Program-made: the position numbers and the translations under genes | Source of the DNA: Albidovulum inexpectatum | GTDB lineage: Bacteria > Pseudomonadota > Alphaproteobacteria > Rhodobacterales > Rhodobacteraceae | Assembly (NCBI RefSeq): GCF_002927635.1 | Contig: NZ_PRDS01000005.1 | Coordinates: 62,001 to 126,000, forward strand | Length of the DNA: 64,000 nt | Direction of reading: 5' to 3' | The notes under the pieces: model-generated | What the model was told of the DNA's origin: nothing | The model's input: only the letters and a program-made list of their open reading frames with translations | Databases searched by the model: none | Part shown: positions 27,506 through 31,282 of the stretch, in pieces | How the letters are laid out: each line of letters starts with the position of its first letter | Position numbering within the stretch: position 1 is the stretch's first letter

Positions 27506-28732
27506 ATGGGCATCGAGAAGACCAACAGTTTCACGAACGGACCGGACGAACGCGGGCGGTTCGGCATATTCGGCGGCCGCTTCGTCAGCGAAACGCTGAT
27601 GCCGCTGATCCTCGAGCTGGAAGCGGAATATGAGAAGGCCAAGACCGACGACAGCTTCTGGGCCGAGATGGATTTCCTCTGGAAGCATTATGTCGGCCGT
27701 CCCTCGCCTTTGTACTTCGCCGAACGCCTGACCGAGCATCTGGGCGGCGCCAAGGTCTATATGAAGCGTGACGAGCTGAACCACACGGGTGCGCACAAGA
27801 TCAACAACGTGCTGGGTCAGATCATCCTTGCCCGCCGCATGGGCAAGACCCGGATCATTGCCGAGACGGGCGCGGGCCAGCACGGCGTGGCCACGGCGAC
27901 GGTCTGCGCGAAGTTCGGGCTGAAATGCGTGGTCTACATGGGTGCCCATGATGTCGAGCGACAAAAGCCCAACGTCTTTCGCATGAAGCTGCTGGGGGCC
28001 GAGGTGGTTCCCGTCACCTCGGGCCGTGGGACGCTGAAGGATGCCATGAATGATGCCCTGCGCGACTGGGTGACCAATGTGCGCGATACCTTCTATTGCA
28101 TCGGCACGGTTGCCGGGCCGCATCCCTATCCGGCGATGGTGCGGGACTTCCAGTCGATCATCGGCAAGGAAGTGCGCAGCCAGATGATGGAGGCCGAAGG
28201 GCGCCTGCCCGATACGCTGGTCGCGGCGATCGGGGGCGGCTCGAACGCGATGGGTCTGTTCTATCCGTTCCTCGATGAAAGCTCGGTCCGGATCATTGGC
28301 GTCGAGGCTGGCGGCAGGGGCGTGGACGAGAAGATGGAACATTGCGCCAGTCTGACCGGCGGTCGGCCCGGCGTGCTGCATGGCAATCGCACCTATCTGT
28401 TGCAGAACGAAGATGGCCAGATCCTGGAAGGGCATTCGATCTCGGCGGGTCTCGACTATCCCGGGATCGGTCCCGAACATGCCTGGCTGCACGAAACCGG
28501 CCGGGCGGAATATGTCGCCATCACGGATGAAGAGGCGCTGGAAGCGTTCCAGCTGTGCTGCCGCATGGAGGGTATCATCCCCGCGCTGGAGCCCAGCCAT
28601 GCGCTTGCCCATGTCATGAAGATCGCACCCGATCTGCCGCGCGACCATATCATCTGCATGAACATGTGTGGGCGCGGAGACAAGGATATCTTCACGGTGG
28701 CAAAGCATCTGGGCGCTGAAATGGGCTTCTGA
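27506..28732 (+). CDS. trpB: Tryptophan synthase beta chain
   Basis: This 408-residue PLP enzyme has the Schiff-base lysine at Lys98 ([10 protein letters not shown]), the phosphate-binding GGGSNAMG, and [13 protein letters not shown]. It condenses indole with serine. No trpA is visible within the window downstream, where a perfect palindrome ends the unit; trpA must lie elsewhere. GGAGGA precedes the start. Confidence 0.98.
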
Positions 28733-28758
28733 GGCGCCTAAACCATGGTTTAGGCGCC
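28733..28758 (+). terminator. 26-base perfect palindrome directly after trpB
   Basis: GGCGCCTAAACC, AT, GGTTTAGGCGCC begins at the first base after the trpB TGA. Twelve-base arms would form a very stable hairpin, but the downstream sequence CTTGCCCC has no T-run. It is probably a 3'-end stabilising or Rho-assisted terminator structure. Confidence 0.6.
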
Positions 28759-28899
28759 CTTGCCCCGGGTTTATGGGGGCGAATCTAAACTTCGGCTCAA
28801 TGGCCTGTCCGCATCCCGGCTGGTTTCCTGCATGCATCGCGACCGGTTCGATGGTTTGCCGGCATCGCGGAGGAGAAAAATGTGTCAGGAGGAAAGACA

Positions 28900-29418
28900 A
28901 TGATGATGCGGAAACTTGCAATCGCGACCGCGACGCTGATGTTCTCAAGCGGCCTCGCCATGGCCGAGGTTTCGACCGAGGCGCTCGTCTCGGACCTGCA
29001 GTCGCAGGGCTTTGACTGGATCGAGGTGAAGCGCGGCCCGACCCAGATCAAGGTCGAGGCCGTCAGGGATGGCGTGAAATACGAGGTCGTCTATGACCGC
29101 GAGACCGGCGCGGTAATCAAGAGCGAGACCGAGTCTGCCGGCGACGATGCCGGGCGCAGCGGTGTCGAGGTGCGCGACCGCGACCGCGATTTCGTCAAGG
29201 AAGGGTCGGCCAGTTCGGACGACGACGATTCCGACGGCAAGGGCCGTGGCCGTGGCCGCGGTCGGGGCGGCGATGACGACGACGATGACGATCGTGACGG
29301 CGGCCGTGGCCATGACGATGACGACGACCATGACGATGACGATCGCGACGATGATCGTGGCGGTGATCGGGACGACGATCACGATGACGACCGGGATGAC
29401 GACCGGGACGACGATTGA
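28900..29418 (+). CDS. Exported PepSY-like protein with Arg-Gly linker and Asp-rich tail (paralogue 1)
   Basis: This 172-residue protein has a Sec signal peptide (about residues 1-22, ending GLAMA). A PepSY-like domain of some 60 residues follows (LVSDLQSQGFDWIEVKRG, YEVVYDRETGAVIKSE). The last ~70 residues are low complexity: GRGRGRGRGG, then runs of Asp broken by His, Arg and Gly. Such a tail could bind divalent cations. ATG 28900 is chosen because AGGAGGAAAG sits just upstream; a GTG 18 bases earlier would put it out of place. It is the first of three same-strand genes, with a paralogue and a membrane-bound LuxR regulator. Confidence 0.75.
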   Translation: MMMRKLAIATATLMFSSGLAMAEVSTEALVSDLQSQGFDWIEVKRGPTQIKVEAVRDGVKYEVVYDRETGAVIKSETESAGDDAGRSGVEVRDRDRDFVKEGSASSDDDDSDGKGRGRGRGRGGDDDDDDDRDGGRGHDDDDDHDDDDRDDDRGGDRDDDHDDDRDDDRDDD

Positions 29419-29503
29419 TCCGCAGCATCCGCCGCGTCCCGGACTTGTCAGCCGGGACGCGCGCGGGGCATGATCTGTCAGAACGATATGGTGCGGGGGG
29501 CGC

Positions 29504-29911
29504 ATGAAGCGCAGGACATTCCTGATCGGGTTGTCGGGGGCGCTGGTGGCCCCCCGCATCGCGTTGGCGCGCGACTTCGTTGCCGAAATCGTCGCGCAGC
29601 TGGGCGCGGCCGGTTACGAGATCGACAGGATCAGCCGCACCTGGCTGGGCCGCATCCGTATCCGTGCTCACAACGCGCGTGGTGAGCGCGAGATCGTGAT
29701 CAATCCGGTAACGGGGGAAATCCTGCGCGATCTCTGGGTTTCGGGGCGCTTGCCGGGTGGCCTGTTCGGTGGCACGTCGGGAAGCGATGAAGGCGCGGGC
29801 GGTTCGGCTGGGGACGATGGCGGCGGTCGGGGGCGGGGCCGTGGCCGTGGCCGCGGGCGTGGCGGCGACGACGATGACGATCGCGATGACGACGACCACG
29901 ATGACGACTGA
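29504..29911 (+). CDS. Exported PepSY-like protein with Arg-Gly linker and Asp-rich tail (paralogue 2)
   Basis: This 135-residue protein has the same architecture as the preceding gene: export signal, a PepSY-like domain of ~55 residues (GYEIDRISRTWLG, REIVINPVTGEILRDLW), a Gly/Ser-rich linker, GRGRGRGRGRGRGG and a short Asp/His/Arg tail. The N-terminus begins MKRRTFLIG with a twin arginine before a hydrophobic stretch and a cleavage region near IALA, which fits a Tat signal, whereas paralogue 1 has a Sec-type signal. It lies 85 bases after paralogue 1 and 27 before the LuxR gene. Function unknown; PepSY domains often occur in protease-inhibitory or sensory proteins. Confidence 0.75.
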   Translation: MKRRTFLIGLSGALVAPRIALARDFVAEIVAQLGAAGYEIDRISRTWLGRIRIRAHNARGEREIVINPVTGEILRDLWVSGRLPGGLFGGTSGSDEGAGGSAGDDGGGRGRGRGRGRGRGGDDDDDRDDDDHDDD

Positions 29912-29938
29912 CCCGGACAGCACGGAAGGCCGCCGGCG

Positions 29939-30478
29939 ATGCGAGGCGTAGCCACCATTCTTGCAGTCTTCCTGGTACAGTTCATCTGTGCCCTGTTTTT
30001 TGTCGGCGATATCGTCGCATCCGTTCTTGGCCTGCCGATCGGGCCCATGCCGTGGGAATACCGCGAGCTTCTCGAGGTCGGCGCGGCATTCGGATTGTTG
30101 ATCGGGCTGATCTTGGGCGGGGTCCTGCTGCGCCGCGCGCTGGCCGATCGGCGCAGGGCCGAGGAAAGACTTCGCCGAGCTTCCAGCGCCTTTGGTGAAC
30201 TGCTGATGGAGCGGTTCGACGAATGGGGCCTGACAGCGGCCGAACGCGACGTGGCCCTGTTCGCGATCAAGGGATTGTCCACGGCCGAAATCGCGGCAAT
30301 CCGTGGCACGTCCGAAGGCACGATCAAGGCCCAGACCAACGCGATCTATCGCAAGGCCGGGGTCAGCGGGCGGCCACAGCTGATAAGCCTGTTTCTCGAG
30401 GATCTGGTCCACGACCTGAAACCGGACATGGAAACGGACCCGTCCCGGCCCGCTGCCACGCCCGGTGCCGCAGACTAG
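29939..30478 (+). CDS. Membrane-anchored LuxR-type HTH regulator
   Basis: This 179-residue protein has two N-terminal membrane segments (about residues 5-27 and 44-68) joined by a short loop, then a basic coiled region and a C-terminal LuxR/GerE HTH (LTAAERDVALFAIKGLSTAEIA, then GTSEGTIKAQTNAIYRKAGVSGR, about 95-140). No receiver or autoinducer domain is present. A one-component membrane regulator is the simplest reading, perhaps sensing a signal relayed by the two exported PepSY proteins encoded upstream. The TAG stop lies inside a CTAG that also borders the insertion sequence, so the 3' end of the transcript is altered. Confidence 0.8.
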   Translation: MRGVATILAVFLVQFICALFFVGDIVASVLGLPIGPMPWEYRELLEVGAAFGLLIGLILGGVLLRRALADRRRAEERLRRASSAFGELLMERFDEWGLTAAERDVALFAIKGLSTAEIAAIRGTSEGTIKAQTNAIYRKAGVSGRPQLISLFLEDLVHDLKPDMETDPSRPAATPGAAD

Positions 30479-31282
30479 GACACCGAATCATAAACGCGCA
30501 ACCGGATGCGTGTTGCGGCGAGTTTGATGAGGGCGAGGAAATTGGCGTCGTGTTTTTCGTATCGGGTTGCGATGGCCCGGTAGTGCTTGAGCTTCGAGAA
30601 AAATCGCTCGATCCGGTTGCGCCGCTTGCAGGCTTCGCGGTCCAGCGGCGGCGGGTCGGACCGGCGCGGGATCGGGCGGATGACGGCGCTTGCACCGACC
30701 TTTGCGAGGTGATCGCGCAGGCGATTGCTGTCGTAGGCGGCGTCCGCCAGCAGGGTCTGGCCCGGGCCGACGGTGCCCAGCATGTCGCCGGCGGAGCGGC
30801 CATCATGGGCCTGTCCGGCGGTCAGTTTCAGTGTGATCGGCAGACCGCGCGCATCGGTGACGGCGTGGATCTTGGTCGTCAGACCGCCCCGCGAGCGCCC
30901 CATGCAGAGGGCTCGAAGGTCAGCCACACCGGCGGCACCGGCGGGCGCCTGGCCCCCTGTTTGCGTTCGCCCCGTGCTGGTGAACGCGGATGGAAGACCT
31001 GTCCACCGACTGTTCCGACCCCTCATAAGCTGCGGATACCGCCTCGAATATCCGATCCCAGACTCCCAGCTTCGTCCATCGCACAAATCGATTGTAGCAG
31101 GTCGTATAGGGGCCGTAGCGCTCGGGAATATCGGCCCAGGGCGATCCGGTCCGCAGTCGCCAGTAGATGCCATTCAGGACACGACGGTCATCGACCCGCG
31201 GCACCCCGCGCGGCTTGTTCGGCAGAAGCGGCTCGATGATCGACCATTCGAAGTCGGTCAGCTCGTAGCGACGATGAGACAT
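30475..31282 (-). CDS. IS5-family transposase, two frames joined by a frameshift
   Basis: The upstream frame (31282 down to 30920, 120 residues) has the DUF4096-type start YELTDFEWSIIEPLLP and the first catalytic Asp in SVDRSSIRVHQH. The downstream frame (to 30475) carries GRSRGGLTTKIHAVTD, the second Asp in LLADAAYDSNRLRDH and the catalytic Glu in RNRIERFFSKLKHYRAIATRYEK, so the DDE triad is complete. The frames join near a run of five G on the coding strand (30953-30957); the downstream frame is +1 to the upstream one. Many members of this group produce transposase by programmed frameshifting. A GAAAGAGGAGAG site precedes the ATG. Confidence 0.85.

Follow-up and report, generated by a model that had tools for sequence, protein, structure and literature searches.

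A PepSY–LuxR gene set of Albidovulum inexpectatum and its relatives: a candidate one-component membrane circuit with a predicted operator before its own genes

Small PepSY proteins, with a domain that Pfam describes as named for YpeB and peptidase propeptides, reportedly often stand beside regulators, and the one published mechanism that we found acts on a histidine kinase (PMC12714742). As described in the relevant passages of that paper, DbfQ of Vibrio cholerae binds the sensory domain of the kinase DbfS, which leads to phosphatase activity, DbfR is the response regulator, and outer-membrane damage switches the pathway on; in Pseudomonas aeruginosa, two PepSY genes (PA2659 and PA2658) precede the two-component system BqsRS, and only the product of the nearer one is predicted to bind the sensor. 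UipA of Microbacterium, a single-pass membrane protein with tandem PepSY domains, offers another comparison, as these domains are able to bind metals and have a negatively charged metal-binding face (PMC8963506); the passage on UipA describes no linked LuxR regulator. Here, we analyse a three-gene set in a stretch of 64,000 nucleotides of A. inexpectatum (contig NZ_PRDS01000005.1, positions 62,001 to 126,000), hereafter the window, whose own numbering is used throughout. The set lies on the forward strand and encodes an exported PepSY_2 protein (P1, 28900–29418), an exported PepSY-like protein (P2, 29504–29911) and a regulator (R, 29939–30478) in which two N-terminal membrane helices precede a C-terminal LuxR/GerE helix-turn-helix (HTH). 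A preliminary description, made from the letters of the window alone, had placed the three genes at the same coordinates, in the same order and on the same strand. The predicted operator upstream of P1, which extends the feature to 28733–30478, was missed there and is new here.

The arrangement resembles DbfQ–DbfR–DbfS in that a small exported PepSY gene lies directly upstream of a membrane regulator within a module that recurs across genomes, and it resembles PA2659–PA2658–BqsRS in its two successive PepSY proteins (PMC12714742, in the passages on these systems). It differs from DbfQRS in that a membrane hairpin and a DNA-binding domain are joined in one protein, no kinase gene adjoins it and the PepSY proteins carry acidic tails; BqsRS is a two-component system, and acidic tails go unmentioned in the passage concerned. 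Only P1, P2 and R stand between trpB and a transposase gene, and no kinase gene adjoins them, the check for kinases having covered this stretch only. The preliminary description had known of no characterised system of this form. A literature search of titles and abstracts, with most subscription journals outside its reach, gave no paper on this PepSY–LuxR gene set among those listed, although control of an adjacent regulator by a small periplasmic PepSY protein has been published for DbfQ and DbfS (PMC12714742, same passages). The module is real and conserved, and it appears to be undescribed. With moderate confidence, we read it as a self-contained one-component membrane circuit, in which the hairpin of R would respond to periplasmic PepSY partners and the operon itself would be the main direct target. 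Its linkage and its predicted operator are well supported by sequence comparison, while control of R by the PepSY proteins and cation sensing by their tails are what we infer.

The link between the regulator and PepSY genes was followed in 112 loci, composed of 80 named loci (the best 80 of 174 confirmed R relatives, mostly from Rhodobacteraceae/Paracoccaceae) and of loci from a sample of 61 family genomes. Some places recur among these loci, which are referred to by L numbers (L002/L004/L124, L001/L003/L114, L016/L106, in part L129/L145 and probably L006/L102); such duplicates were kept in the linkage counts over the 112 loci, in tail composition and charge, in the relaxed site scan, in the helix–operator counts and in the 166 R records, and were reduced for the 99 upstream regions, the 110-locus site count (by two loci) and the 82-site consensus. 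A PepSY gene lies upstream of the regulator gene on the same strand in 107 of the 112 loci, usually less than 100 bp away, and a second PepSY gene lies within about 1 kb in 64. The named loci have the upstream gene in 79 of 80 cases, the exception being L098. In the family sample, R homologues were found at 60 places in 38 of the 61 genomes, and 41 of the 53 places examined have a PepSY gene upstream (the other seven lie in G011 and G021, two apiece, and singly in G014, G002 and G057). Failure of the regulator to co-occur with PepSY genes in relatives had been named beforehand as the result that would count against the proposal; the two do co-occur, and the label of an envelope-sensing module is thus reasonable. 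The 3.0-Mb source genome points the same way. PF13670 matches it at four places, where P1 and the PepSY protein of a second regulator run score above the cut-off, P2 scores 16.8 bits and a fourth place scores weakly (11.5 bits), and the three credible PepSY_2 matches all fall inside the two runs of genes closed by a regulator of this kind. The placement in the source genome and the co-occurrence in relatives together indicate that the link is not due to chance. A separate observation concerns L129/L145, where two convergent regulator genes, separated by about 50 bp, are each preceded by a PepSY gene; no Asp-rich stretch is seen at the start of the second of these PepSY proteins.

The predicted operator, O1, is a 5-4-5 palindrome, TAAAC-N4-GTTTA, at 28739–28752 (TAAACCATGGTTTA). 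Of the 99 deduplicated regions that precede the first PepSY gene (up to 260 nt each), 54 contain this pattern; the highest count of any word in ten shuffled sets was 4. A stretch of up to 2.5 kb before R contains it in 81 of 110 loci, that is, in 55 of 64 with P1 and in 26 of 46 without P1. The 82 deduplicated sites give the consensus cATAAACY-NN-RGTTTATg, a 7-2-7 layout that we take to be that of NarL-type sites. A second conserved element, GTTTA-N12-TAAAC, follows at 28769–28790, with half-sites at +30 and +47 relative to O1; it has one match in the window and none in 100 shuffles, and among the 82 sites TAAAC stands at +47 in 40 (at +46 to +48 in 55) and GTTTA at +30 in 30. Still further 3' is a conserved CAAT on the forward strand (28798–28801; +59 to +62), whose bases are the commonest at their positions in 55–67% of the 82 sites and which is a candidate promoter part. 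The exact site has one copy in the 3.0-Mb source genome, at O1, and with up to one mismatch allowed only three places were found there, O1 included, as against 20 for a reversed-pattern control. Across the 61 family genomes (about 233 Mb), there are 54 exact sites, 17 of them within 2 kb upstream of an R homologue. The 23 best-scoring family R places have an exact site within that distance in 16 cases, and about 0.007 would be expected from the 37 other sites in about 233 Mb. The site is duplicated in four loci that also have two R genes (L043, L050, L054 and L056); L071 and L072 have two sites and one R match. Eight off-locus exact sites in relatives, inspected for their open reading frames (ORFs), seem sporadic, with the exception of L155 and possibly L166.

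In the window, O1 is held by a 26-bp perfect palindrome, GGCGCC-TAAAC-CATG-GTTTA-GGCGCC (28733–28758), which starts directly 3' of the trpB stop codon and has a good RNA fold (z −2.1), so that it might be the terminator of trpB or another RNA hairpin instead of an operator. We regard this as very improbable. The arm letters are fixed by the picking of sites and are hence uninformative on pairing, and the flanks of 85 distinct sites pair about as well as in shuffles, apart from slightly more pairing at their first two positions; TTTT occurs in the next 20 nt at only 5 of 89 sites, and on these two counts a main role as trpB terminator was rejected. Six further-reaching loci, each with about 5 kb available upstream, have the site but no trpB (L043, L047, L051, L055, L059 and L072), and TAAGC versions of it adjoin R homologues elsewhere.

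These TAAGC versions bear on which protein would bind the site. Some R homologues outside the main group are accompanied by TAAGC-N4-GCTTA or GCTTA-N12-TAAGC, and their recognition helix is mostly TVRAQL, not TVKAQT. In a relaxed scan, loci of the plain PepSY–LuxR layout had TAAGC sites in 1 and TAAAC sites in 87 of 121 cases, compared with 5 and 1 of 47 in loci of other layouts. The recognition helix of TAAAC loci has Lys130 in 88/88 and Thr133 in 84/88, while that of GC-type loci has Arg at 130 in 9/9 and Leu at 133 in 7/9 (duplicate places included in both counts). A second set, which partly overlaps the first, consisted of L115–L148 and L222–L232 with a readable helix (L124 excluded). Here, arginine-helix loci had the GC form in 7/10 and the AT form in 0/10, and lysine-helix loci had the AT form in 3/22 and the GC form in 0/22; five of the seven GC-form loci had already entered the first count, and the new ones are L121 (from the genus of L138) and L222, the latter fetched after the helix–site rule had been noticed and in keeping with it. 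Among the lysine-helix PepSY loci that took no part in motif discovery (L127–L132), the exact site was present in three of six (L128, L130 and L131), with at most 1.5 kb available. TAAGC sites also stand directly before regulators with no detected PepSY gene, at L121 and L138, which belong to one genus, and at L186; in 14 chosen genomes, 11 of 18 TAAGC sites were off-locus. Since the site covaries with the recognition helix and the GC sites precede PepSY-less homologues, R is the likely binder. Palindromes of the 5-4-5 type are typical of CRP/FNR proteins, and the predicted operator could belong to a protein of that or another kind while R regulates other genes. This we consider unlikely, given that the site occurs at R loci far above chance, varies with the recognition helix of R and precedes homologues that have no PepSY partner.

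R itself is a very small transmembrane transcription factor. It matches GerE (PF00196) with 32.3 bits against a cut-off of 23.5, its HTH covers residues 98–151 (about 30230–30391), and its structural matches include the C-terminal domains of VraR, GerE, NarL and DosR (best E 0.016). Hydrophobic stretches span approximately residues 1–37 and 43–69, and by a similar rule at least two such stretches are found in 162 of 166 records of R homologues. The AlphaFold model (mean predicted local distance difference test score, pLDDT, 89) has a helix at residues 2–30, a turn of eight residues and one unbroken helix at 39–95 that runs from the second membrane helix to the HTH, which bears out the earlier picture of a LuxR HTH on two membrane helices with a short outside loop. 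A Pfam scan of R returned neither the autoinducer-binding domain of quorum-sensing LuxR proteins, the N-terminal half being the two membrane helices, nor the receiver domain of two-component response regulators. The DNA-binding domain is probably cytoplasmic, judging from the arginines that follow the second helix. ToxR, TcpP and CadC are inner-membrane one-component transcription factors as well, often with a periplasmic partner; proteins of that type have an N-terminal winged helix, a single membrane helix and a large periplasmic domain, in contrast to the C-terminal GerE domain and two-helix hairpin of R. The LIC13292 family regulator (NCBIfam NF047608) is similar in length and its C-terminal region matches R with 63.2 bits over residues 71–157, which leaves the N-terminal half of R outside the matched stretch and is below the 200-bit family cut-off, so that R is not a member.

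With almost no parts outside the membrane, R would have to receive signals via its hairpin. Across 22 diverse sequences, Q14, L53 and G56 are invariant and C17, E46 and A49 are conserved in at least 90%, and the stretch that holds these six residues (29978–30106) is a candidate site of PepSY contact. The same conservation, together with the tiny outside turn, also fits an alternative in which P1 and P2 are effectors only, acting as periplasmic buffers of cations or cationic peptides, and R senses the membrane through its hairpin (redox state at C17, lipid state or voltage) and regulates them without binding them. The cytochrome b561 gene between PepSY and R in the sister modules described below suggests redox, and the site stands directly before some PepSY-less homologues (L138 and L186). 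PepSY is nevertheless the commonest neighbour of R in both the named and the family samples and is retained in the sister modules, and DbfQ provides a precedent for direct contact; we hold the effector-only alternative to be rather doubtful, yet far from negligible.

Of the two partners, P1 is a member of PepSY_2 (PF13670), with 27.3 bits against a Pfam gathering cut-off of 24.3, whereas P2 as a single sequence reaches approximately 16–18 bits against the PepSY_2/PepSY cut-off of 24. The two had been described as PepSY paralogues, which holds directly for P1 and, in the case of P2, through profile comparison: a P2-family profile (31 sequences) aligned to a P1-family profile (27 sequences) in hhalign with 98.6% probability (E 9.8e-16), and of the 31 aligned P2-family sequences, 10 match PepSY_2 at E ≤ 0.01. 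P2 can on these grounds of profile homology be assigned to the PepSY superfamily. Its predicted structure has one core helix and four strands, with a mean pLDDT of 83 and of 95–97 over residues 31–80 (in ten-residue blocks), and its core motif, RT(L/W/F)LGRxR...RE...TG...(L)RD, is conserved. A Foldseek search with this model listed UipA and YpeB at weak E values of approximately 0.5–0.6, and when P2 was compared by profile with solved structures, no PepSY match emerged. The PepSY proteins proximal to the regulator gene, as P2 is, and the distal ones, as P1 is, form separate groups, with LGRx(R/Q) in 95 of 107 and 1 of 64, respectively. P1 has a Sec-type signal at about residues 1–22 (by eye) and P2 a twin-arginine-type start, MKRRTFL. 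The contrast between the two signals noted in the preliminary description is therefore visible in the window, but it is not constant among relatives; an RRx(F/L/I/V/M) pattern is present in 62 of 107 proximal and 2 of 64 distal proteins, and a functional contrast between the twin-arginine and Sec routes was rejected as a general feature on account of the former figure.

The origin of the PepSY name in peptidase propeptides and YpeB invites the thought that these proteins are protease inhibitors or propeptide-like chaperones induced by R upon proteolytic stress in the envelope, and the P2 model does align, weakly, to YpeB (Z 5.3, tied with unrelated rows) and to a vibriolysin chain (Z 5.2). No protease was recognised among the recurrent neighbour clusters, however, and the recurrent neighbour in the sister module is cytochrome b561, so that we would give this explanation little credence.

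The tails of both proteins are acidic. That of P1 is Asp-rich from approximately 29218 onwards, and in P2 a Gly/Arg linker is followed by an Asp-rich end. Among the distal PepSY proteins 63 of 64, and among the proximal ones 86 of 107, have a tail with a net charge of −10 or lower; the mean Asp content is 44% in the distal tails (64 proteins) and 31.5%, along with Gly and Ser, in the proximal ones (107 proteins, which include some of tail-less modules). Acidic tails are thus a family property, as the preliminary description would have it for the window pair, while its Gly-Arg linker is less general, the linkers of the relatives shown being mostly Gly/Ser/Asp. The tandem repeats in the window are imperfect, and the codons of P1 beyond residue 75 include 27 GAC mixed with 16 GAT, both of which suggest that the acidity is maintained at the protein level. 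Some P2 orthologues have no acidic tail (e.g. L012, L025 and L086), which indicates that the tail is not essential to the module. That the tails sense metal, cations or cationic peptides is a guess.

For the circuit as we read it, the following mechanism is proposed. The anatomy and model of R suggest that a two-helix hairpin anchors it in the inner membrane and that its DNA-binding domain faces the cytoplasm, and P1 and P2, by their signal sequences, would be exported to the periplasm. One or both of them may act on the hairpin or its short outside turn in the fashion of DbfQ on DbfS, and the acidic tails might, more speculatively, tune this action by binding cations or cationic molecules or by electrostatic repulsion. 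By analogy with BqsRS, P2, which adjoins R, would be the better candidate for contact with R, and P1 for cation buffering or competition. R would bind the NarL-like 7-2-7 palindrome ATAAACY-NN-RGTTTAT and the second element upstream of P1, as conservation and helix covariation support, and would thereby set the expression of its own operon (autoregulation). As the exact site occurs once in the source genome, the main direct output of R would be the PepSY proteins themselves, and the system would then resemble a homeostat in which these proteins are both sensor and product.

Several observations weigh against this proposal. The outside turn of R is so short that PepSY contact would be limited to the hairpin itself, and 12 of the 53 family places have no detected PepSY gene, one of them (L021) being without upstream sequence. 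The exact site is absent from 29 of 110 loci, in some owing to short upstream sequence, and it has no genome-wide enrichment, the reversed pattern occurring at 186 places compared with 54 in the 61 genomes, so that the case for an operator rests on position. Three of the ten arginine-helix loci (L137, L139 and L140) and most lysine-helix loci outside the acidic-tail group have no site; b561-linked regulators with TVKxHL (e.g. TVKAHL) or TVKTQL-type helices, including the second one of the source genome, have no recognised site; and the site of L125, whose helix was unread, is mixed. Helix and operator types also follow lineages, and shared ancestry therefore explains part of their covariation. 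R may have a wider regulon via degenerate sites, and in another family genome (L155) an exact site at 1275 precedes, by about 120 bp, an ORF that encodes an exported, Gly/Ser-rich protein. The product of this ORF has a twin-arginine-like start and no Pfam match, and it is a possible second target of the regulator.

A second gene layout is found in sister modules. The second R homologue of the source genome (G000:C3, about 227.2–228.6 kb; L002) closes the order PepSY–cytochrome b561–R, in a run with a small, tail-less exported PepSY protein and with an SLT-domain lytic transglycosylase after the regulator. This arrangement is also seen in other families of the class (L115, L116, L118, L119, L222 and L224) and in members of the own family (L028, L031, L120, L183, L185, L189, L190, L192–L195 and L199). 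The PepSY proteins of L002, L028, L116, L118, L119 and L120 have short tails or none, and the tail accordingly does not define the link to the regulator. A search for the operator of the b561 module in 26 upstream regions, drawn from mixed non-acidic-tail loci, gave no shared palindrome of comparable strength. Further R homologues adjoin cytochrome b561 alone, a DUF347 membrane protein or no recognised partner; at L121 and L139, two-helix LuxR genes without PepSY are divergent from a DUF347 membrane protein gene, and L121 has a TAAGC-type site near its start. Outside the family, R is patchy: matches were found in at least 10 of 190 (E 1e-12) and at least 20 of 385 (E 1e-20) genomes of the class and in at least 22 of 299 genomes of the phylum (E 1e-12), all including the own family and all lower bounds, the scoring having covered only some of the candidates from the first look at each genome. 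We tentatively suggest, with a little less than even confidence, that these modules represent a widespread, undescribed class in Alphaproteobacteria, in which a GerE-fused hairpin would read the state of periplasmic PepSY proteins and chiefly control its own operon via TAARC-N4-GYTTA, the fourth arm base following the lysine or arginine of the recognition helix; the PepSY component would be an acidic-tail pair in Rhodobacteraceae and would be joined by cytochrome b561 elsewhere. The operator is predicted to the base, and in no fewer than two gene layouts a PepSY partner would here serve a very small transmembrane transcription factor. For cultured Rhodobacteraceae, this opens the questions of how a short hairpin relays a periplasmic signal to DNA and of whether acidic tails act as envelope cation gauges.

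The surroundings of the gene set vary among relatives. In 65 of 112 loci, as in the window (27506–28732, upstream of P1), the gene set is preceded by a trpB gene of the same orientation. The start of P1 is taken as the ATG at 28900, an upstream GTG at 28882 being a possible alternative. A seven-codon ORF with a strong Shine-Dalgarno sequence (28880–28903), whose stop overlaps the P1 start codon, was rejected as a conserved short upstream ORF, a loosely similar one being found in 11 of 64 loci only. Fourteen of the 112 loci have a gene for a beta-lactamase-fold hydrolase on the opposite strand. Downstream, a DUF2237 gene on the opposite strand is present in 78 of 112 loci (e.g. L058:5978–6403), and other genes recur less often; being convergent with R, the DUF2237 gene is probably outside the operon of R. 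Its expected place in the window is occupied by an IS4/5-family insertion sequence element, whose two transposase frames overlap and have DUF4096 and DDE domains; it lies on the minus strand directly 3' of R (30475–31282).

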